Positions 27,776-59,653 of a stretch of DNA of 64,000 nucleotides are shown in pieces. This stretch comes from Cytophagales bacterium (lineage in GTDB: Bacteria > Bacteroidota > Bacteroidia > Cytophagales > Flammeovirgaceae). The notes beneath the pieces were generated by a model, which did no database searches, was not told where the DNA came from, and saw only the letters and a list, made by a program, of their open reading frames with translations. A program made the position numbers and the translations under genes. The stretch is taken from the NCBI GenBank assembly GCA_025056215.1, contig JANWWC010000002.1, forward strand, positions 361,052 through 425,051, read 5' to 3'. The number at the start of each line of letters is the position of its first letter. The first letter of the stretch is position 1.

Positions 27776-30700
27776 AACTACCTTTTTGGGAAATCATTTT
27801 AGGAGGAATTTTCGCGCTAAGTCATACAGCTACTGGGCAAGTGTACTTTTTTAAAAAAGTTACAATTAAAGATGGACTAGCAGAAAATGAATCTCGATGT
27901 ATCTTAAAAGATCATTTAGGATTTTTGTGGATTGGCTCTGCAAATGAAGGAATTAGCCGCTATGACGGCAAAAATATGACTCTATACAACACCAGAAACG
28001 GACTTTCTAACAATCAAATCTTTTCTCTTTTGCAAGATAGCAAAACAAACCTATGGGTAGGTACTGGAAACGGAATTACACGCATTTACGGAAAAGAAAT
28101 CCAAACTTATCTGGTTCAGAAAAAAGAAAACAACACTTCTAAATACGTTGCTTTAGGATACGACTCGGCTCATCGCCTTTGGTTTTGTCCACAAGAAGGC
28201 GCTGTAGGATATATCCAAAACGACGTGATTACTTACCTAAGAAACGAGCGTGCTTCCATCATGTCTAAAACTTGCATGTTAATAGACAAAAAAAATCGAA
28301 TTTGGATTGGCACCCAAAGCGAAGGACTATTTCTAATTGATGGAAAAAAATCTCGCTTTTTTAACGCTCAATCTGGATTGCCCGAAACATTTATTCATTG
28401 CATTACAGAGTACCAAAATCAAATCTACATCGGAACAGAAGTGGGAGTCTTTAAAATTGAAAATCTTAAAGTCGTTCCCTTAAAGGCTCGTCATTTACCT
28501 GAAAAGTTTCCTGTCTATAAGATTTTTGTAGATAAACAAGACCGTATGTGGCTCGGCTCCGCAAGAGGTGTTTACTGCTTAGACCATAACTATACAAAAT
28601 TCTTAAGCGATAGAAATGGACTAGATGGCTCTATTACAGACATTCTTGAAGACAACGAAAATGGAATTTGGTTTTGCTCTACTTTAGGATTATATCGCCT
28701 CAATCACGAAGCTTTTCTCACTTACACTAAAGAGAATGGATTATCCGACAACTCAATTCACTCCATTTTAATCGATAAATCTCACAACATTTGGGTTTGT
28801 AATGGCAACTCAATTAACGTAATTCAAAAAGATGGAAATATAATCTCTCCGCTACTTCCTAAACCTCTCATGGAAAACACTTCTAAAATGACAATGTACC
28901 AGAACGGTATTCTCTTTACGGCACCCACTGGATTGTACTTACTTAAAAACGGTAAGTTTACGTTTTTTGCCGATAAAGTTTCTTCTCTCAAGCCGAGAGA
29001 ATACAAAACGATTTATTTTGATGAAGTCTCTCAAAGAGTGTACTTATCGTCTCAGTATGGTATTGTATATTTTGATGGAACCCAATTTTACTCTTATCTT
29101 AAACCAGAAGATATTGCAGGAGCTACAGCTACTGCCTTTCTTACGGATAAATATGGAAAACTTTGGATCGGTACAGATAAATCCGGAATTTTCATTTATC
29201 AAGATGATATTTTTTATAAGCAACTCACAGCGATAGAAGGATTAATAGGAGAAAAAATCAATGATATGGCGATTGATGATTCTGTAGTGTGGGTAGCTAC
29301 ACTAGGCAATAGCCTTTGTAAAATTAGCATTCATGATTTCGAAACAACTTGTTATGAAGAAATTAATGTCTCTTCTTCCAACATTAGAAGTGTAGTAGTA
29401 GATAAAAACCACCATATTTGGGTAGGAACTGATAGAGGATTAGATAAAGTATATATCTGGAATAATGATCAATTAGAGGTGATCAACTATACCAATGACG
29501 AGGGATTTTTACCTTTAGAAGTCAATCGGCAAGCGATGGTGTACGACGGTATCGACGAACTTTGGATAGGAACGAATGAAGGGATCACCAAGTTCGATAT
29601 GTCTAAGCGTATTTCAATTAAAAAGCCTCCTACTACTTACATCATCAACGTAAGATTATTTTTCGAACCTATAGAGTGGGAAGAATATACCGAAAACCAT
29701 AAAAACTGGCTAAATTTACCGCCTTATTTCAAGCTACCTCACGATAAAAACAACCTTACTTTCGATTTTGTAGGGCTCACTTTCGACCGTTCTGACAAAA
29801 TCCAATACCGCTGGAAATTGGAAGGTGTTGATAAAGATTGGGTGCCCGCCACTTATCGAAACGAGGCTGTCTATACGAATATTTCCCCAGGGAACTACGT
29901 TTTTTATGTAAAATCTTGCAGTGCCGACGGTGTTTGGAGCGATAAGCCTGCTTCTATAGAGTTCGAAATTACTAAACCTTTTTATCAAACTAGGTTTTTT
30001 TATGTTGTTGTATTTATAATATCTGCAATTGGAATTTATATTTATCTCAAATTCAGAATTCGTTACTTAGAAAGGAAACAAGCAGAATTAGCCTTAAAAG
30101 TGCGAGAAAGAACTACCGAAATCGAAAAACAAAAAGAACATATTCAAGCTCAAACCCTTAAGCTCGAACAAGTACTCAAAGAAATCGATATTAAAAATAA
30201 AGAACTTATCGAATATACTACTGAACTTACTTCAAGCTTGGAATATGGTAGAAAAATTCAAAATGCTATTTTTGCTTATCATACGGACTTGGTTAAATTT
30301 TTCCCTAACAGTTTTGTATTACAAATTCCTAAAAAAATTGTTTTTGGAGACTTTTTATTTGTGCGTTATTTATCAAATCATCGATTAATGATTGCTGTAG
30401 GTGATTGCACGGGAAGTGGTGTTCCTGCAGCCTTTATTACTCTAATTAGCAACGATTTTATCAACAAAATCCTTAATGAAGACGATAGTATCTCAGCAGA
30501 TACCGTTCTTTTGAAACTTGACAAAGATATTAAAAACATTCTTCAACATGCTTCAAGCGAAAACTTGAACGATGGCTTAGACATGGGCGTTTGCATTATT
30601 GAATTAAGCACAGGGAAACTAGAATACGCCGGAGCGCGCGTTCCGCTTACAATTGTCAAAAAAAATGGCGTAGAAGAAACTTTAAAAGGTAATTTTACAA

Positions 30701-31002
30701 GCATCGGGATAAGCTTCACAGGTGTATCTCCTGAGTTTGATGTACAAACTGTTTATCTCGAGGAAGGAACTTTCATATATCTTTATTCGGATGGTTTTCC
30801 TAATCAATTTGGAGGGCTTAAAAATGAAAAATACAAATCTGCTCGGTTTCGCAAACTTCTTTCGCGCATTAGTCGAATGAAACCTGAAACACAGCACAAC
30901 ATTTTATTCGACGAGTTTACAGAATGGCGCGGCAACGAACCACAAATTGACGACGTAATTGTAGTAGGTTTTCGCTTCGATGGAAATATCTCTAAACCTT
31001 AA
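27772..31002 (+). CDS. Periplasmic propeller / triple-tyrosine sensor fused to PP2C (SpoIIE-type) phosphatase
   Basis: A 1076-residue transmembrane signalling protein. A signal peptide (1-23) is followed by two-component-regulator propeller blades up to about residue 620, with many WIG(T/S) repeats (FLWIGSANEG, NLWVGTGNG, RIWIGTQSEG). A triple-tyrosine Y_Y_Y domain covers about 660-735. A membrane helix at about 742-762 leads into a coiled coil (about 763-830). The cytoplasmic SpoIIE phosphatase (about 850-1070) keeps its acidic metal sites: FGDF, GDCTGSGVPAAF, LDMGVC, LYSDGF and IDDVIVV. It should sense a periplasmic ligand, perhaps a glycan, and dephosphorylate a cytoplasmic target (inference). 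Confidence 0.9.
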   Translation: MKLPFWEIILGGIFALSHTATGQVYFFKKVTIKDGLAENESRCILKDHLGFLWIGSANEGISRYDGKNMTLYNTRNGLSNNQIFSLLQDSKTNLWVGTGNGITRIYGKEIQTYLVQKKENNTSKYVALGYDSAHRLWFCPQEGAVGYIQNDVITYLRNERASIMSKTCMLIDKKNRIWIGTQSEGLFLIDGKKSRFFNAQSGLPETFIHCITEYQNQIYIGTEVGVFKIENLKVVPLKARHLPEKFPVYKIFVDKQDRMWLGSARGVYCLDHNYTKFLSDRNGLDGSITDILEDNENGIWFCSTLGLYRLNHEAFLTYTKENGLSDNSIHSILIDKSHNIWVCNGNSINVIQKDGNIISPLLPKPLMENTSKMTMYQNGILFTAPTGLYLLKNGKFTFFADKVSSLKPREYKTIYFDEVSQRVYLSSQYGIVYFDGTQFYSYLKPEDIAGATATAFLTDKYGKLWIGTDKSGIFIYQDDIFYKQLTAIEGLIGEKINDMAIDDSVVWVATLGNSLCKISIHDFETTCYEEINVSSSNIRSVVVDKNHHIWVGTDRGLDKVYIWNNDQLEVINYTNDEGFLPLEVNRQAMVYDGIDELWIGTNEGITKFDMSKRISIKKPPTTYIINVRLFFEPIEWEEYTENHKNWLNLPPYFKLPHDKNNLTFDFVGLTFDRSDKIQYRWKLEGVDKDWVPATYRNEAVYTNISPGNYVFYVKSCSADGVWSDKPASIEFEITKPFYQTRFFYVVVFIISAIGIYIYLKFRIRYLERKQAELALKVRERTTEIEKQKEHIQAQTLKLEQVLKEIDIKNKELIEYTTELTSSLEYGRKIQNAIFAYHTDLVKFFPNSFVLQIPKKIVFGDFLFVRYLSNHRLMIAVGDCTGSGVPAAFITLISNDFINKILNEDDSISADTVLLKLDKDIKNILQHASSENLNDGLDMGVCIIELSTGKLEYAGARVPLTIVKKNGVEETLKGNFTSIGISFTGVSPEFDVQTVYLEEGTFIYLYSDGFPNQFGGLKNEKYKSARFRKLLSRISRMKPETQHNILFDEFTEWRGNEPQIDDVIVVGFRFDGNISKP

Positions 31003-33086: not shown

Positions 33087-34325
33087 AGATGCTTTTATTT
33101 GACAAGTGAGCAATGTAATATCGTCAGCAGTAGATTCGCTTCCTCGAAATTTGGCAAGTTCCTCCAATAATTTTTCATTCATTTGTAGGGGTTCTAAATG
33201 AAAGTTTTTTTGTAGAAATTGTTTTAACTGCTCATCGCCAAACTGTTCTTGAGCAAAATTTGTAGTTTCCGTAATCCCATCTGTAAAGCATACGATAGTC
33301 CAATGAGTCATATTTTCGATTTCATTAATTCGTAAATTAGGGAGTTCCTCTACAGCGCCCAAGACGGTAGTGTCAGGTTCGAGCTGTACTACTTTTCCTT
33401 CCTTATCAATCAAAAAAGGAGCATTGTGTCCAGCATTGATGTATTGAATTCTTTTAAAAGCAAAATCGTAATGCAAAAAAAAGGCTGTAACAAAATGGGA
33501 TTCTACAAAATCTTTAGAAGCTACTTGATATACTAAATCATTCAGTTGCTGAACAATCGTACTCAAATTATCGGTGTAGCGCGTAAGCATATGCACTGCC
33601 CCACGAAAATTAGACATCAATAAAGAAGCAGAGATGCCTTTCCCAGAAACATCAGCAATACAAATAATGAATCTATCTTTTCCAAGCGGAATATAATCGT
33701 AGTAATCTCCACCTACACTGCTATGAGGTTGGTAATTGGCTGCAATTTTAAGCTCATGAGAATATGGCAACTTTTTAGGAAAAAACAAGCGCTGTACATT
33801 TTTAGCAAGTTCAATTTGATGCCGTTGTCGCTGTTCGCGCCTTACAAATTTTTTATTCTCAATAGCTACAATAATGATATTACAGAGCGCAGAGATAAAT
33901 TTCTTATCGAACAACTCTTCGTTTTGGACAGAAGACTTTTTTTTGAGAAAAATAAACGCTAGCGGTTGACTTTTGTGAGCAATCGGAATTAATGAATCAA
34001 ACTCATTAAAAGGAAAAATATCGCGAACTTCTTCAATCAACTCGCTTTGATGTTCTACAAAAGTGAGATTTTTAAGAACATCAGGCAGTGGAATTTCCGA
34101 AAATCGATAAGGCAATCCGTAAAATTCCTGACAGCGCCACCCTTCTTCTGTAAAAGTATAAAGCGCCATTGCCGAAATAATATTATAAAACTGAGACTTT
34201 AATGTAAAACGAAAAATGCGATACAAACTTTCCTCTTTTTCATTATTGTTAATCGCGTCGATAATTTCAAAAAGTCCTCTAAGTTCAATGTTGAGCAGTT
34301 CAATTTTATCTTCTGCACTAATCAT
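33084..34325 (-). CDS. GAF-domain PP2C (SpoIIE-type) phosphatase
   Basis: A cytoplasmic protein of about 413 residues. Residues about 15-165 form a GAF-like sensor. A short helical linker (FVRREQRQRHQIELAKNVQ) leads to the SpoIIE domain (about 190-410) with intact metal-site motifs: VGGDYYDYIPL, CIADVSGKGISASLLM, AFFLHYDF, NAGHNAPFL, CFTDGITE and ADDITLL. RsbU-like enzymes of this form dephosphorylate anti-anti-sigma proteins. The start is the ATG at 34325; a TTG six bases upstream is possible. It follows the GT9 glycosyltransferase gene by 11 bp. No STAS or RsbW-type gene is near. Confidence 0.9.
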   Translation of the reverse strand: MISAEDKIELLNIELRGLFEIIDAINNNEKEESLYRIFRFTLKSQFYNIISAMALYTFTEEGWRCQEFYGLPYRFSEIPLPDVLKNLTFVEHQSELIEEVRDIFPFNEFDSLIPIAHKSQPLAFIFLKKKSSVQNEELFDKKFISALCNIIIVAIENKKFVRREQRQRHQIELAKNVQRLFFPKKLPYSHELKIAANYQPHSSVGGDYYDYIPLGKDRFIICIADVSGKGISASLLMSNFRGAVHMLTRYTDNLSTIVQQLNDLVYQVASKDFVESHFVTAFFLHYDFAFKRIQYINAGHNAPFLIDKEGKVVQLEPDTTVLGAVEELPNLRINEIENMTHWTIVCFTDGITETTNFAQEQFGDEQLKQFLQKNFHLEPLQMNEKLLEELAKFRGSESTADDITLLTCQIKAS

Positions 34326-38260: not shown

Positions 38261-41200
38261 GTGAAAAACTATCGCTTGATTTTTATCTTTATTGCTGGAT
38301 TATATAAAAATAGTTACTCTCAAGGCTTCGACCCTTACGAAGTGCGTTTTCGCCATATTTCCATAGAACAAGGACTTTCCCAAAGCAGCGTTCACAAAAT
38401 TATTCAAGATCATCAAGGCTTTCTTTGGATTTGTACACAAGACGGTCTTAACAAATTCGATGGATATCAATTTACAGTGTACAGCTACAATGCTCAAGAT
38501 ACAAATAGTTTAGCCGACGACTACATTTATTGCGTATTAGAAGATGCCAACCGGACGATCTGGGTGGGAACAGACGCAGGTGGATTATGTCGCTTTGACC
38601 GTCGAACTGAAAAATTTAAATCGTATAAAGCAGATCCTCAAAATCCTAATGCTATTGCAAGCAATAGAGTTTCCGTACTCTATGAACTTGAAGCTGGCAA
38701 AACACTTTTAGTAGGTACTGACGACGCAGGCTTATGCGTATTTGACATTGCTACCGAAAAATTTACACCTTTAGCATATAATTCTCCCTCTCCTAATACC
38801 CTAAAAGGAAATCAAATTAATTGTATTGTTCCATCTAGAAAAGCAGGAAAACTCTGGATTGGTACAAATGCAGGTTTTAGCGAAATGGATTTAAAAACTT
38901 ATACTTTTCGAAACTACAACAAAAATCCAGAAAATCCTAATTCTTTGATATTTAACAAAGTGTGGGATATTATAGAAGTACAAGACACATTATTTATTGC
39001 AACAGAAGGTGGCTTGAGTGTTTTTCATCTTCCTTCTGGAAACTATACAAATTATACAGCTTCAGAATCATCGGAGTATAGTCTGGCGAGCAACAATATT
39101 ATAGATATACATCTCGATAGAGAAGGAATATTATGGTTGGCTACCGAAAACGGCATTCATGTTTTTGATAGAAATAAAAAAATTTTCTACCGAATGCAGC
39201 ACGACCCTCTCAACCCTTACAGCATTCTGAACAATTTCATGATGTCTATTTTTGAAGATAATACGGGAGTGCTTTGGTTTGGTTCGCGCGGAGGAGGAAT
39301 TAACTATTACGATAGAAACACCCAAAAATTCAGAACTATCCAAAATAGACCTGGAAATCCAAACTCACTAAACAATAACGACGTGCGTACATTATTACAA
39401 GAGAACGACAGCATCGTATGGATAGGCACTTTAGGAGGAGGACTTACGCGTTATAATAGGATCGCTAACCAATTTCAAGTGTATAAAAACGACCCTAAAC
39501 AGCCTAATTCATTGCCCAATAATAAAGTGCGCTCGCTAATGATAGATAAATCGGGAAACTTATGGGTAGGAACAAGTGGTGGAGGACTTTGCAAAATGAA
39601 CTCCGATAAAAAAACTTTTACTATCTATAAAAATAATCCTGAAGACCCTGAAAGTATTAGTCATGACGATATATGGTGGATTTTAGAAGATGACAACCAA
39701 ATTTTTTGGTTGGCTACCAGAGGCGGTGGATTATGTAAGTTCAATGCTAAAACAGGAAAAGCTAAGTCTTACAAAAATAACAAAGAAGATCCCAACTCCT
39801 TGCCCGCCAACCGTGTCCGCCATATTGCTTTCGACAAAGATAAGAATTTGTGGATCTCTACAAGTGGTGGTGGCTTAGCATATTTTGATAAACAAACTGA
39901 GCAATTCAAAGTTTATAAGCAAATCAACAACAAAGCAGGTTCTTTGAGTAACAACTTTGTGAACTGCGTATTCATAGAAAAAAATGGACAAATGTGGGTA
40001 GCAACTTACAGTGGATTAAATAAGTTTGATGCTAAAACGGAAACCTTCAAAGTCTACCAAGAAAAAGACGGCCTTTGCAATGACGTAATCTACGGAATAT
40101 TGCAGGATGATGACGGCTATTTATGGTTAAGTACCAACAAAGGACTTTCTAAGTTCGACCCTAAAACAGAAAAATTTAGAAATTTTGACGATAGAGAAGG
40201 ATTGCAAAGCAACGAATTCAACTCAGGTGCTTACTACAAAGGTCTCAATGGATTGCTATTCTTTGGAGGAATTAAAGGCTTTAATGAGTTTAATCCCAGA
40301 ACTCTTAAGGAAAACCCATATATTCCTCCTGTCGCTATCACAGACTTTGAGATTTTTAACAAAAGCGTTCCTATAGGGGGAAATTCTCCTCTAAAACAAC
40401 ACATCAATCTCACAGAGAGCATCACTCTTTCTTATGCTGACTACGTATTTACCTTTAAATATGCCGCTTTAAACTATAGCCTTTCTGAAAAAAATACATA
40501 TGCTTACAAATTAGAAGGATTCGACAAAGATTGGAACTATGTAGGAGACAGAAGATTCGCCACTTACACAAACATTCCTGGAGGAGAATACGTGTTCCGC
40601 GTTAAGGCTGCTAATAACGATGGTCTGTGGAATGAAGAAGGGAAAGCGATTAAAATTAAGATTATCCCACCTTTTTGGGAAACCTGGTGGTTCAGAATCT
40701 TTAGTTTCTTTGCCTTGGTGATAGGTGGCTACACAGCCTATAAGCTGCGCGTAAGATCTGTTATAAAGCGAAAACAAGAACTCGAACGCTTAGTAGAACT
40801 AAGAACCGCTACTATCATGCAGCAAAAAATGGAACTCGAACAACAAGCAGAGGAATTAATCGCTGCTAACGAACAAATTTCTGCTAAAAATGCCGAATTA
40901 GAACAACTCAATGAAGAAATTGCTGCTCAAAGGGATACTCTCAACGAAGCATATGAAAACATTCGTTTACAAGCTTCTGTCATTATGAGCAGCATCAATT
41001 ATGCTCAAACCATCCAAAAAGCAATTTTACCTCCTTTAGAAGAAATAAATCATGTATTTTCAGAAAGCTTTGTCATCTATCGCCCTAAAGATATTGTTTC
41101 AGGAGATTTTTATTGGTTTTCAGAAATTGAGAACGGCGGTTGTGTGGCTGTAGTAGATTGCACAGGTCATGGAGTTCCAGGCGCTTTTATGAGCATGATA

Positions 41201-41737
41201 GGCAGCCAGCTACTTAACGAAATTGTAGGAGAAAAAGAAATATATGAGCCCCAATTCGTATTAGAGATGTTAGATGTAGGTATTATTGTCCGTCTTAAAC
41301 AACGGGAAGGTGCTAATAAAGACGGAATGGATATATGTTTTGTGAAAATAGAGAAAACTTCTCAGGAAAATGAATATAATTTATCGTTTGCAGGAGCGAA
41401 GCGCCCTCTTTATATAGCTACGCGCGAAAAAGGATTTCAAACTATCCAACCTTGCAGGCGTTCAATCGGAGGTATTAAGTCTAAAGAAACATCATTTACA
41501 CAAGAAACTTTCACTGTTCGCAAAGGCGACACGATGTTTCTTACTACTGATGGCGTAGCGGATTTAATCAACCCTATGCGACAAAGCTATGGTACAGGAC
41601 GCTTAAAAGAATTTTTAGCTAATCATTACCACCTTCCTTTTTCGGAACTTTATCCTCTTTTGGAAGAAGAATTTAATAATTTCCAACAAGGAGCAGAACA
41701 AAGAGACGACGTAACTTTGTTAGGACTAAGAATTTAA
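38261..41737 (+). CDS. Periplasmic propeller / triple-tyrosine sensor fused to PP2C (SpoIIE-type) phosphatase, second copy
   Basis: A protein of about 1158 residues. The GTG at 38261 gives a proper signal peptide (MKNYRLIFIFIAGLYKNSYSQ). About 14 propeller repeats follow to residue about 700 (FLWICTQDGLNKFDGY, KLWIGTNAGF, LWFGSRGGGINYYD, LWVGTSGGGLCKM). The Y_Y_Y domain spans about 720-790, the membrane helix about 810-830, and a long Glu-rich coiled coil about 830-905. The SpoIIE phosphatase (about 937-1158) keeps all acidic motifs: SGDFYWF, VDCTGHGVPGAFMSMIG, DGMDICF, LTTDGVADL and RDDVTLLG. It closely parallels the 27.8-31.0 kb protein. Its 3' end overlaps the convergent dusB gene by 12 bp. 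Confidence 0.9.
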   Translation: MKNYRLIFIFIAGLYKNSYSQGFDPYEVRFRHISIEQGLSQSSVHKIIQDHQGFLWICTQDGLNKFDGYQFTVYSYNAQDTNSLADDYIYCVLEDANRTIWVGTDAGGLCRFDRRTEKFKSYKADPQNPNAIASNRVSVLYELEAGKTLLVGTDDAGLCVFDIATEKFTPLAYNSPSPNTLKGNQINCIVPSRKAGKLWIGTNAGFSEMDLKTYTFRNYNKNPENPNSLIFNKVWDIIEVQDTLFIATEGGLSVFHLPSGNYTNYTASESSEYSLASNNIIDIHLDREGILWLATENGIHVFDRNKKIFYRMQHDPLNPYSILNNFMMSIFEDNTGVLWFGSRGGGINYYDRNTQKFRTIQNRPGNPNSLNNNDVRTLLQENDSIVWIGTLGGGLTRYNRIANQFQVYKNDPKQPNSLPNNKVRSLMIDKSGNLWVGTSGGGLCKMNSDKKTFTIYKNNPEDPESISHDDIWWILEDDNQIFWLATRGGGLCKFNAKTGKAKSYKNNKEDPNSLPANRVRHIAFDKDKNLWISTSGGGLAYFDKQTEQFKVYKQINNKAGSLSNNFVNCVFIEKNGQMWVATYSGLNKFDAKTETFKVYQEKDGLCNDVIYGILQDDDGYLWLSTNKGLSKFDPKTEKFRNFDDREGLQSNEFNSGAYYKGLNGLLFFGGIKGFNEFNPRTLKENPYIPPVAITDFEIFNKSVPIGGNSPLKQHINLTESITLSYADYVFTFKYAALNYSLSEKNTYAYKLEGFDKDWNYVGDRRFATYTNIPGGEYVFRVKAANNDGLWNEEGKAIKIKIIPPFWETWWFRIFSFFALVIGGYTAYKLRVRSVIKRKQELERLVELRTATIMQQKMELEQQAEELIAANEQISAKNAELEQLNEEIAAQRDTLNEAYENIRLQASVIMSSINYAQTIQKAILPPLEEINHVFSESFVIYRPKDIVSGDFYWFSEIENGGCVAVVDCTGHGVPGAFMSMIGSQLLNEIVGEKEIYEPQFVLEMLDVGIIVRLKQREGANKDGMDICFVKIEKTSQENEYNLSFAGAKRPLYIATREKGFQTIQPCRRSIGGIKSKETSFTQETFTVRKGDTMFLTTDGVADLINPMRQSYGTGRLKEFLANHYHLPFSELYPLLEEEFNNFQQGAEQRDDVTLLGLRI

Positions 41738-56798: not shown

Positions 56799-56827
56799 AA
56801 CCTGTAGTATGCTTAATGCTTTATGCC

Positions 56828-57235
56828 ATGAAAAGATTTAAAAAAATTGTTCATTTGTTGTCTTTTTCGTTGCTTTTAAGCTCGGCAAACGTACCCCACT
56901 CAACTTTTGAAGAGAGAAATTTAGTCCCAAATTTTCAAGCAACTATTCAATCGAAAAGTTTACCCTCTAACAGCAAGGTTGTAAAAAAAGAAATTGAAAG
57001 TGTTGGAAAGATTTACGAACAAAAAAAAACTGATGCATCGCAAGCTTCTTCTAAAGGAAGTATACACTGGGCTAACATTGTAGCAATTTCAACGGGCGTA
57101 ATAAGTTTTTTGCTATGGTTTTTTTCGATTCCGGCCATAGTATTTGGCGCAATAGGCCTTAACAAACCAGGTAAAGGGCTGGGAATTGCAGGACTTGCAG
57201 CTGGAATTCTCGTATTTCTTCTCTTTCTTCTATGA
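56828..57235 (+). CDS. Exported DUF4190-like membrane protein
   Basis: A protein of about 135 residues from the ATG at 56828; an in-frame ATG also exists at 56816. A signal peptide (MKRFKKIVHLLSFSLLLSSAN) is followed by a polar segment of about 60 residues rich in Ser and Lys. Two membrane helices (about 80-98 and 115-133) then surround FGAIGLNKPGKGLGIAGLAAG, the DUF4190 pattern. A paralogue lies at 58105-58548. The role of these proteins is unknown. The gene's end overlaps the convergent DUF2752 gene by 6 bp. Confidence 0.7.
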   Translation: MKRFKKIVHLLSFSLLLSSANVPHSTFEERNLVPNFQATIQSKSLPSNSKVVKKEIESVGKIYEQKKTDASQASSKGSIHWANIVAISTGVISFLLWFFSIPAIVFGAIGLNKPGKGLGIAGLAAGILVFLLFLL

Positions 57236-57586
57236 TGATTTCACTTTATGAACGTCTTGTTTGGCAAACCTATACTTATGGTAACTTTGCAGAAGTTCTT
57301 GGAAATATAAGTAAGACAAAATCGGAAAAACTAAAAAAGATATCTTATTCAAATCCCACGCAGCCCTAAAATCAAAATGAAAAAGATGCATAAGAGCTCT
57401 TGTCATGCCGCAACCGTAGCACTCTACATCGAACAACAAAACAGAAAGACATAAGCTTTGACCTCTATCGAAAAAATCAGCAGGCAATAAAACTAAAATA
57501 ATAGGAATTAAAATCATTCCTATTATTTTCGCCAATAAAAACGTTTTGTTTTGAAATAAATTATAGTTTTTTAGCATAATCACCAT
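57230..57586 (-). CDS. DUF2752 membrane protein
   Basis: A 118-residue protein with membrane helices at about 17-35 and 80-95 and the DUF2752 signature CYGCGMTRALMHLFHFDFRAAWDLN near 54-78, where the Cys pair and the following Arg are conserved. The function of the family is unknown. It overlaps the TM2 gene upstream by 26 bp, so the two are likely co-translated. A second in-frame ATG (57577) is an alternative start. Confidence 0.8.
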   Translation of the reverse strand: MVIMLKNYNLFQNKTFLLAKIIGMILIPIILVLLPADFFDRGQSLCLSVLLFDVECYGCGMTRALMHLFHFDFRAAWDLNKISFLVFPILSYLYFQELLQSYHKYRFAKQDVHKVKSS

Positions 57587-58016
57587 CTTTAGGCTTCAAG
57601 TTGCCAGTAACAATCCGAATAAGATCGATCAAAGTCCAAACTCCACAACCTCCTGCTGTAAGAAGTTGTACAACTCCTTGCCATGTATATCCTAAATAAA
57701 AACGGTGGATTCCTAGCGTACCTACGAGAAGCACTAAAACTAGAGCCACAACCTGACTTTTTTCTCCATTCATATTCTTCTTTTCTAATTCTTTTTTAAC
57801 TTTTTTTTCAGCAACTTTCACCACGAGCTTTTCTGAGAGCGATAAATTGCTTAGAACTTCTTTCTCAACAATTGAGGCGTTGTTTGGAAGAGCTTGGATA
57901 AGGCTTTCTTCAACACTTGGCGAGTTTGCAATCTGAATGCTTTTTGATACATTAGATGACATTAATACAAATGCCATAGAAGCTACCCAAAAGTGTAACA
58001 AGATTTTTTTTACCAT
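57561..58016 (-). CDS. Exported TM2-domain protein
   Basis: A protein of about 151 residues from the ATG at 58016; an ATG at 58043 is also in frame but sits almost at the expected transcription start. A signal peptide (about 1-22, ending near VLMSSN) precedes a polar, Lys/Glu-rich helical stretch (to about 85). The C-terminal TM2 domain has two helices around GTLGIHRFYLGYTWQGVVQ and GGCGVWTLIDLIRIV. TM2 domains are found in many phyla; their bacterial role is unknown. Confidence 0.8.
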   Translation of the reverse strand: MVKKILLHFWVASMAFVLMSSNVSKSIQIANSPSVEESLIQALPNNASIVEKEVLSNLSLSEKLVVKVAEKKVKKELEKKNMNGEKSQVVALVLVLLVGTLGIHRFYLGYTWQGVVQLLTAGGCGVWTLIDLIRIVTGNLKPKDGDYAKKL

Positions 58017-58053
58017 AGTTGTAGAGTTTAAATTTTTTACCATAACTTCGCTA

Positions 58054-58104: not shown

Positions 58105-58548
58105 ATGAAAAATTGCAAGTGTAGTATTTTTTTCATCTTTCTCTCCATATGGCTGAGTGCAGCTACTTTACCTTTCGAACAATTAAGAAAATCAGATGAT
58201 TTTTACCATCCTTTAATTTCAAAAAATTGTAGTTGGTCATCAGAAACAAGATCTAACCCAACAAACCCTAAAACAGACGATCCTCAAGTTACCCCTTCAG
58301 AAAAACGCCGTATTCATTGGTCAAACATAGCAGCGCTGGCAAGTGGAGTTCTGGCTTATGTCAGTTTCCCTGAGTTATTGCTTTTTTTCTTACCGGCTGT
58401 CGTGTTTGGTGCTATCGGAATTGCCAAGTCAGGTCGAAAAAAAAAGTTTGGCGGGCTGGGCATGGGAATTGCAGGCTTCGTACTCGGCTTAATTGGACTG
58501 TTTTTAGTAGTCATGGTTATAATTATATTCGCTACTTATTTTCCATAA
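58105..58548 (+). CDS. Exported DUF4190-like membrane protein, second copy
   Basis: A 147-residue paralogue of the 56828-57235 protein. It has a signal peptide (about 1-20, MKNCKCSIFFIFLSIWLSAA), a polar segment of about 50 residues, then RRIHWSNIAALASGVLAY (compare GSIHWANIVAISTGVISF in the paralogue) and membrane helices around VFGAIGIAKSGRKKKFGGLGMGIAG. It is divergent from the TM2 gene. Its stop codon directly abuts the stop of the convergent kinase-like gene. Confidence 0.7.
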   Translation: MKNCKCSIFFIFLSIWLSAATLPFEQLRKSDDFYHPLISKNCSWSSETRSNPTNPKTDDPQVTPSEKRRIHWSNIAALASGVLAYVSFPELLLFFLPAVVFGAIGIAKSGRKKKFGGLGMGIAGFVLGLIGLFLVVMVIIIFATYFP

Positions 58549-59562
58549 TTACACTATGATCTTGGGCAAGAAGATGTTGAACAACGTCTCTTCTTCTGTT
58601 GAGTAAACAAGTTCTATTTTTCCGCCCAACTTAGTAGCGGCTAGGGTGGCGCTGTAAAGCTCTAATCCCGTATGTCCTGAATGGTTCGAAGTGCGGTGGA
58701 AAAGTTTAAAGATCTCCTTTGAAAGCTCTGGAGGGATGGTGTTGCCGTTATAACTAATAAAAAATAATAAATCGTTTGCATTGTCAATTGCTTTTACTTC
58801 TAAAAAAGAAGTATTATAGCGCTTAATCGTAATATTGTTAAAAGCATACTCAAGCAGATTTTCTAACAAAATTGTCAGCACGTTCTTATCTACATAAATA
58901 GATATATTGGGAGGATAAATAAAATCATAACGAATTCGTTCATCTTCTTTTTGTCGAACAAAGTTTTCCAGTTGTTCAAAAATCGTGCTTAAATGCCATA
59001 CACGGGGATTGATTTCCATTTTTTTAAGATTATCCACTGAAAGTAATCGCGTGAGCAAATTTCTAAGTGAAATAGCAGTTTGCGCAATCATCTTAAAGTA
59101 TTGCAAACAATGCTCATCTTTTGTTTCCATCTCTGCTAGATGGCATAATCCGATAATGCTGACCAAAGGTCCTTTGATATCGTGGGAGGCTCTATAAATA
59201 AAGTCATCGAGTTCACGATAGCTAATGTTTAGCTCTTCGTTAAGTGCAATAAGTTCTTCTGTGCGTTGTCGTACTTTTTCTTGTAGCTCTTGCTTAGCAG
59301 CCTGAAGTTCTGCATTTTGATTATCAATCAAAGATTTAGCATTCTCGAGCTCTTTTGTTCTTTCGATCAGTTTTTCATTTATAATTCTCATGCGCGTTTG
59401 CAGACGATCGCTCACGCGCATCACAAATCGAATATCTTTTAACAACATTTCATAATGATTGAGCAATACAGAAAAATATTCCTTCCATGTTTCCAACGAT
59501 TCGGGAGGATTTTCTAACAACTTGCGCGCTTCTGATAAAAAGATATCTTCTTTTTCGTACAT
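58549..59562 (-). CDS. Histidine-kinase-like protein with degraded ATP-binding site
   Basis: A protein of about 337 residues from the ATG at 59562; a GTG at 59577 is also possible. There are no membrane segments. A helical N-terminal part and a coiled coil (about 65-120) lead to a HisKA domain with an intact acceptor motif, YRASHDIKGPLVSIIGL. The ATPase domain is abnormal: the N box reads ENLLEYAFNN (second Asn replaced by Tyr, Lys by Asn) and the G1 box reads SYNGNTIPPE in place of DNGxGI. The F box (IFKLFHRTS) and G2 box (GHTGLEL) are recognisable. It may be a pseudokinase that accepts or removes phosphate rather than using ATP (inference). Confidence 0.8.
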   Translation of the reverse strand: MYEKEDIFLSEARKLLENPPESLETWKEYFSVLLNHYEMLLKDIRFVMRVSDRLQTRMRIINEKLIERTKELENAKSLIDNQNAELQAAKQELQEKVRQRTEELIALNEELNISYRELDDFIYRASHDIKGPLVSIIGLCHLAEMETKDEHCLQYFKMIAQTAISLRNLLTRLLSVDNLKKMEINPRVWHLSTIFEQLENFVRQKEDERIRYDFIYPPNISIYVDKNVLTILLENLLEYAFNNITIKRYNTSFLEVKAIDNANDLLFFISYNGNTIPPELSKEIFKLFHRTSNHSGHTGLELYSATLAATKLGGKIELVYSTEEETLFNIFLPKIIV

Positions 59563-59653
59563 CTTAAAACTATTCACTATAACACTTTATTTCAAATGTA
59601 ACATCAATCTACAAAAAAATCAGATTATCACTGAAGTTTATTCCATTTGAGTG

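Follow-up and report, generated by a model that had tools for sequence, protein, structure and literature searches.

A conserved Cytophagales family of stand-alone histidine kinase homologues that probably lacks ATP use and may function in phosphotransfer

What might a histidine kinase (HK) homologue do that has retained its phosphoacceptor histidine and seems to have lost its site for ATP? This question is raised by P0001, a protein encoded in the window, as we call the whole stretch of 64,000 nucleotides analysed here from contig JANWWC010000002.1 of a Cytophagales bacterium. The original prediction, made from the letters of this DNA alone, described a soluble HK homologue that seems unable to bind ATP and offered three roles for it, namely phosphatase, phosphoacceptor or scaffold. 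Comparison with relatives supports the loss of ATP use well, and to judge from these alignments it is highly probable that P0001 does not use ATP. On the function we are evenly divided, giving about as much credence as doubt to the reading that P0001 is the stand-alone pseudo-HK of a conserved Cytophagales clade and serves as a phosphotransfer node that is fed by other proteins.

The gene, its domains and the residues of the ATP site

The reading frame of P0001 runs from an ATG at 59562 to a stop codon at 58549-58551 with zero internal stops, in agreement with the earlier view of a full-length gene that is not frameshifted (Table 1). An alternative GTG at 59577 would make the protein longer by five residues. 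The column of the ATG is the start in 6 of the 12 relatives of alignment A2, and the remaining six have N-termini longer by 2 to 17 residues, the starts of these relatives having been chosen by us. At its 3' end the gene lies tail to tail with a DUF4190-like gene (58105-58548, +), it is divergent from a ccmF-like cytochrome c assembly gene that extends from 59671 onward (+), and it looks monocistronic. The Bacteroidetes -7 element has the consensus TAnnTTTG, and a candidate match to it is listed in Table 1. The DUF4190-like gene has a paralogue at 56816-57235 (+), both being under the Pfam cut-off, and between the two lie a TM2-domain gene (57561-58043, -) and a small ORF (57230-57586, -).

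Table 1. Positions in the window of P0001, its domains and the residues discussed
Feature	Position	Strand	Basis or remark
Pseudo-histidine kinase ORF P0001, 337 aa, stop codon included	58549..59562	-	ORF list and translation
Candidate -7 element TACATTTG, TAnnTTTG match, starting 38 bases upstream of the ATG	59593..59600	-	Lead only, from the -7 match
N-terminal helical/coiled region, residues 1-115	59218..59562	-	Predicted helices 2-17 and 23-146
DHp (HisKA) domain, residues 118-181	59020..59211	-	Pfam 118-175; model helices to 146 and 150-181
Phosphoacceptor His127 in SHDIKGP	59182..59184	-	Sequence; His and next Asp kept in 16/16 family members
Degraded ATP-binding (CA, HATPase_c) domain, residues 186-335	58558..59007	-	Pfam, relatives, model
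Tyr239 replacing the second N-box Asn	58846..58848	-	Column counts; Asn in 99/100 distinct non-family rows
Tyr271 replacing the adenine-contacting G1 Asp	58750..58752	-	Column counts; Asp in 100/100 non-family rows
Thr275 replacing the second G1 Gly	58738..58740	-	Column counts; Gly in 97/100 non-family rows
Glu301 replacing the second G2 Gly	58660..58662	-	Column counts; Gly in 96/100 non-family rows

Pfam recognises in P0001 a HisKA domain (E 1.4e-6, 28.6 bits against a cut-off of 26.9) and a HATPase_c domain at residues 228-334 (E 4.3e-8, above the curated cut-off). No Pfam domain was found above the cut-off in the N-terminal region, and neither a PAS nor an Hpt domain (PF01627) is present among the Pfam matches of the protein at E up to 1. 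The highest 19-residue mean of the Kyte-Doolittle hydropathy is 1.11, so that P0001 has no strongly hydrophobic segment and looks soluble. Thus, with both HK domains found and no membrane segment, the description as a soluble HK homologue was confirmed. The other 15 members of the family described below have maxima of 0.89 to 2.00, the top one (L087) falling in the CA region and not in an N-terminal anchor.

The AlphaFold2 model, which was obtained with the 13-sequence alignment A2, has a mean pLDDT of 85 and a pTM of 0.61. Its match to HK853 (Z 21.2, 206 residues, rmsd 6.1) is tied with that to the pseudokinase DivL (Z 20.7, 206 residues, rmsd 4.7), and the CA domain of the model alone matches ADP-bound ThkA (Z 20.5, 147 residues, rmsd 2.1). 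The HK/Bergerat fold is predicted to be retained in P0001 despite the missing ligand residues. ChpT is not named among the 50 matches listed per fold search, which has no bearing on a likeness to ChpT.

HKs bind adenine and Mg-ATP, and hold the ATP lid, through residues of their N, G1 and G2 boxes. The acceptor motif SHDIKGP of P0001 is intact, while the N box reads NLLEYAFNN, with Tyr239 in the place of the second Asn, and the G1 box reads ISYNGNT, with Tyr271 in the place of the adenine-binding Asp, all of which had been noticed from the sequence before. Two further losses in the ATP site add to these, T275 at the second G1 Gly and E301 at the second G2 Gly, where the G2 box has GLELY and GLGLY is expected. 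The loss of the N-box Lys, which the original prediction had also counted as a sign, does not stand as such and is not diagnostic, because only 9 of 37 active-type relatives carry Lys there.

A family of stand-alone relatives within Cytophagales

A search of 58 genomes, that of P0001 included, gave four other near-full-length matches (ORFs of 338-358 aa), and 390 genomes of the order, again including its own, were then scanned with the alignment of P0001 and those four. Stand-alone relatives of about 340 aa are present in at least 16 of these 390 genomes and in three bacterial families, all 16 matches lying in ORFs of at most 360 aa and having E 2.9e-69 or better. Five candidates were scored per genome in the scans of the order and the phylum, and the family count is a lower bound that leaves out short, lower-scoring ORFs such as those in G107 (284 aa) and G139 (253 aa). 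Members occur in 3 of the 18 genomes of coded family f1, 8 of the 11 of f2 and 5 of the 13 of f4; two more matches in f4, from ORFs of 724 and 567 aa, were rejected as members, their boxes being intact. Named contigs with members come from Flexithrix dorotheae (L081), Thermoflexibacter ruber (L080) and a Bernardetia MAG (L079), and since these members agree in boxes, lengths and scores with those of the coded genomes G004, G068 and G153, f1, f4 and f2 are probably Flammeovirgaceae, Thermoflexibacteraceae and Bernardetiaceae, respectively. In the phylum-wide sample, E 1e-75 or better was reached among the matches listed by 1 genome of 395, namely P0001's own. A search with the single protein P0001 found no close relative in the genome contigs and viral contigs; the search of the genome contigs with alignment A1 did recover its relatives.

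The position of the G1 Asp is taken in the 16 members by Tyr (10), His (3), Leu (2) or Trp (1), the second G1 Gly position by Gly in none, and the second G2 Gly position by Glu (11), Lys (4) or Arg (1), whereas the N-box Asn position shows Phe (6), Asn (4), Tyr (3), Ile (2) or His (1). An alignment of orthologues, proposed at the outset as a check for loss of the same residues, was therefore clear for the G1 Asp and also for the G2 Gly, each lost in 16 of 16 members, and divided for the N-box Asn, which is lost in 12 and kept in 4 of the 16.

The tree comprised 65 rows, from which the columns of the N, G1 and G2 boxes were left out: the 16 family members and 49 non-family rows, which were picked by hand from 100 distinct non-family rows that take in only loci with a tblastn match at E 1e-3 (L010, discussed below, is among those outside). 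All 16 members fall on one side of one branch with a support of 99/98, and the family label changes once on the tree, against a mean of 14.6 changes for shuffled labels. The 49 non-family rows have 20 columns that are at least 90% conserved from residue 60 on, and the family departs, in the sense that the commonest residue is kept in 8 or fewer of its 16 members, at exactly four of them (239, 271, 275 and 301), all in the ATP site. When all 100 non-family rows are used, the number of columns with at least 90% conservation rises to 25 and the departures are at 239, 271, 275, 297, 300 and 301, the extra columns 297 and 300 both being inside the G2 box. This near-exclusive departure at ATP columns argues that the ATP site has been lost and little else.

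The DHp domain, for its part, appears well preserved, as the identity in its helix 1 is 0.65 among seven family representatives versus 0.57 among 37 active relatives, and the ratio of CA to DHp identity is 0.57 versus 0.77 in the same two sets; the 37 active rows were picked by hand, 12 of the 49 tree rows being left out, including the long HKs with partial loss L118, L119 and L138. In nine close family pairs, every finite dN/dS value is 0.15 or lower in the N-terminus, the DHp and the CA domain, with several of the pairs saturated and dS below 1 in all three regions only for L079-L053 and L051-L079. As judged from these substitution ratios, there is purifying selection between close family members, and since dN/dS is low in the CA domain too, this domain is still under constraint, no longer at its ATP residues. 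The pairs exclude the P0001 gene, which is too distant from any relative, so that the earlier idea that selection keeps the gene holds for the family wherever dN/dS is measurable, with P0001 itself in no pair. 

The three long HKs L118, L119 and L138, from Marinigracilibium, Mangrovivirga and a Cyclobacteriaceae MAG, lie outside the clade and have Glu at the second G2 Gly; two of them also have Gln at the second G1 Gly, and the G1 Asp and the N-box Asn are kept. They are possible half-way stages of the loss of an ATP site.

Phosphotransfer through His127 and its alternatives

The HK fold is established as a dimer, and the helical N-terminus and the DHp domain of P0001 would form the usual one. 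The CA domain, according to the model, would keep the Bergerat fold with the residues for adenine, Mg-ATP and the ATP lid lost, and the larger side chain that all 16 members have at the G1 Asp might plug the adenine pocket. Because its ATP site appears to be gone, P0001 most likely cannot phosphorylate itself. Instead, His127 may take a phosphate from a receiver domain, or from another kinase, and hand it on to a response regulator, in the manner of ChpT, Spo0B and PhyT. Such phosphotransfer via His127 is suggested by the retained His-Asp pair together with the well conserved DHp helix, the stretch surrounding the His being better preserved than any other part of the protein. P0001 joins a DHp domain with its His to a degraded CA domain and has no recognised sensor domain, the composition of the ChpT type of HK-derived phosphotransferase taken as a working type and not as a sequence family.

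Several observations speak against a phosphotransferase. Weak nucleotide binding can persist in a degraded CA domain, as in DivL, and 4 of the 16 members still have the N-box Asn. Moreover, the genome of P0001 has 23 receiver matches and four Hpt matches above the Pfam cut-off, so that candidate donors and acceptors of phosphate exist, and other phosphotransfer domains too; with four Hpt domains already there, another phosphotransferase is not obviously needed. The surroundings of the gene do not point to a partner either. We compared 13 loci (the window and L077-L088), with a Pfam scan of 20 neighbouring proteins, which are part of the total, and found no neighbour next to the gene that is common to all three bacterial families; the only pair of loci with many neighbours in common are the near relatives L077 and L081. 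No receiver gene is nearby, the nearest receiver match on the contig of P0001 being about 51 kb away. The only hint of a circuit is a single case, L087, in which the pseudo-HK gene is flanked on the same strand by a REC-SpoIIE gene and by the gene of a 1274-aa HK that has intact N, G1 and G2 boxes and the DHp motif HEIKNP. In the genome of P0001 no ORF with both a receiver and a SpoIIE match was found when the match lists were compared by eye.

The main rival to phosphotransfer is a reader or scaffold like DivL, which would bind a phosphorylated response regulator or a kinase through its DHp domain and alter a partner kinase without any chemistry at His127. We hold this to be unlikely, and still well ahead of the readings that follow. 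A degraded HK core does serve as a sensor of a phosphorylated receiver in DivL, as described in PMC4211667, the P0001 model resembles DivL (Z 20.7), and the L087 gene lies between those of a REC-SpoIIE protein and an HK with intact boxes. However, the same source gives DivL a Tyr at the acceptor position, where all 16 family members keep the His and the following Asp, and a second ORF that clusters with the HK was found in only 1 of the 13 loci, L087.

A partner that is phosphorylated in trans, forming mixed dimers with an active HK or being phosphorylated by its CA domain and having an output of its own, seems improbable to us. The DHp domain and coil of P0001 closely resemble their counterparts in active HKs from the order, and in L087 the gene of the intact-box HK is directly downstream, but the different DHp motif of that HK (HEIKNP) does not favour mixed dimers. 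In addition, the best other HK match in the genome of P0001 has only 30% identity and lies on a different contig, and the N-terminus of the family is conserved on its own, with E5, L33, Y37 and D52 invariant across all 16 members.

Slightly more improbable still is a phosphatase that drains phosphate from response regulators. HisKA phosphatases use Thr or Asn at the position His+4, which is Gly in 16 of 16 members (Gly131 in P0001), and a canonical phosphatase is therefore disfavoured. As His+4 is also Gly in 36 of the 37 active relatives, this residue was inherited and does not represent a specific adaptation. A phosphatase role was proposed for PhyP, whose ATPase domain is degraded (PMC5898713), and a phosphatase activity by back-transfer to His and subsequent hydrolysis is possible. 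Of the three roles offered by the original prediction, the phosphoacceptor, in the sense of phosphotransfer, thus fits best, the scaffold is possible, and the canonical phosphatase is disfavoured.

Finally, we regard it as very improbable that P0001 still functions as a kinase by means of an atypical nucleotide site, or that its gene is decaying. HATPase_c does remain above the Pfam cut-off, and the N-box Asn is found in 4 of the 16 members, but no member of the clade has the G1 Asp or either of the two Gly residues, and the open frame and the low dN/dS of close family members, where measurable and with P0001 in no pair, argue against decay.

Other findings in these genomes concern further signalling proteins. 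The REC-pseudo-HK L010 was considered as a partner of P0001 and rejected, as its distribution in the 58 genomes (own included) differs: G004 and G009 have P0001 relatives and no L010 match at E 1e-20, and G001, G003, G007 and G011 have an L010 match and no P0001 relative. This second pseudo-HK of the genome (L010:1126-2235; C9:279265-280374, +; 370 aa) consists of a receiver and a degraded HK core in which the acceptor His is absent (VSDLKNP) and the G1 and G2 boxes are degraded. Its relatives L205-L208, from four genomes of the same family, keep the His, their G1 and G2 boxes look degraded by eye, and in three of the four (L205-L207) another receiver-like match lies nearby. The genome also has a third degraded HK core, in a 760-aa HK (L006:1243-3525, -, C11), which keeps AHNLRAP, has the N box LLQYSAT and shows no recognisable G1 or G2. 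SpoIIE-type phosphatases (PF07228) have 35 matches in the 2.83-Mb genome, in our judgement seemingly many for its size, three of them within the window (33096-33680, -; 30376-30978, +; 41141-41734, +). In a Cytophagales MAG, the pseudo-HK gene is followed by that of a Cas9-like protein of 1587 aa with RuvC_III and HNH_4 (L085:11355-16115).

Comparison with known systems

Pseudo-HKs have been described before, as have phosphotransferases derived from HKs. Spo0B of Bacillus subtilis sporulation, which belongs to a different phylum than P0001, is a dimeric HK-derived phosphotransferase with a degraded C-terminal domain that passes phosphate from Spo0F to Spo0A. Both Spo0B and ChpT are named as degenerated HKs that are phosphotransferases in PMC5898713. 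ChpT of Caulobacter crescentus, as described in PMC3433190, shares with P0001 the HK-like architecture, a phosphate-carrying His and a C-terminal domain of Bergerat type that makes no use of ATP; its partners are CckA and CtrA, turns of a helix stand in place of its lid, and it consists of a helical hairpin and the C-terminal domain, lacking in that description the long N-terminal helix of P0001. Neither the ChpT nor the Spo0B family is among the 11 Pfam matches of P0001 at E up to 1, and neither protein turned up in the profile search of PDB sequences, which gave 55 matches at E up to 0.01.

PhyT and PhyP of Sphingomonas melonis also have an intact acceptor His and a degraded ATPase domain, and PhyT transfers phosphate from SdrG~P to PhyR in vitro (PMC5898713). 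The same source presents them as predicted to be membrane-anchored, with an HRxxN-type DHp and encoded at the phyR locus, whereas P0001 looks soluble, is of the HD[LI][KR]GP type (HDIKG) and has no regulator beside its gene. DivL of Caulobacter, too, has a degraded ATP site on an HK fold and binds TNP-ATP at 57 uM; it contains PAS domains and has Tyr as the residue at the acceptor site (PMC4211667), where P0001 has His127 and no PAS domain was found among its Pfam matches at E up to 1.

Active-type HKs of the HD[LI][KR]GP type in Cytophagales share the DHp type of P0001 and differ in keeping the N-box Asn, the G1 Asp and the Gly residues, those listed being mostly longer proteins. One of them, from Xanthocytophaga flavus (L090, an ORF of 1157 aa), is among the nearest sequences outside the clade, with 34% identity to P0001 over residues 49-337.

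The Cytophagales clade is separate from ChpT, PhyT, DivL and Spo0B by DHp type and phylum, and, going by titles and the openings of abstracts, none of the papers listed in our literature searches appears to concern an ATP-site-deficient HK family of Cytophagales. Here we speculate, with somewhat less confidence than for phosphotransfer by P0001 itself, that the clade might be a separately evolved family of HK-derived phosphotransferases in Bacteroidota, in which the pocket would be closed from inside by the large G1 residue, a charged residue would have taken the place of the G2 Gly (Glu, Lys or Arg in 16 of 16), and the kinase core would have become a relay hub for orphan kinases and regulators. 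Because Pfam labels its HisKA and HATPase_c domains, domain annotation would present P0001 as a sensor kinase, and any network drawn from labels of this sort would get the direction of signal flow wrong. ChpT, PhyT, DivL and Spo0B are proteins of alphaproteobacteria and Bacillus; if true, a case that spans a whole Cytophagales clade would mean that the conversion of HKs happened again in another phylum, and would provide a natural series of an ATP site taken apart with the phosphoacceptor kept.
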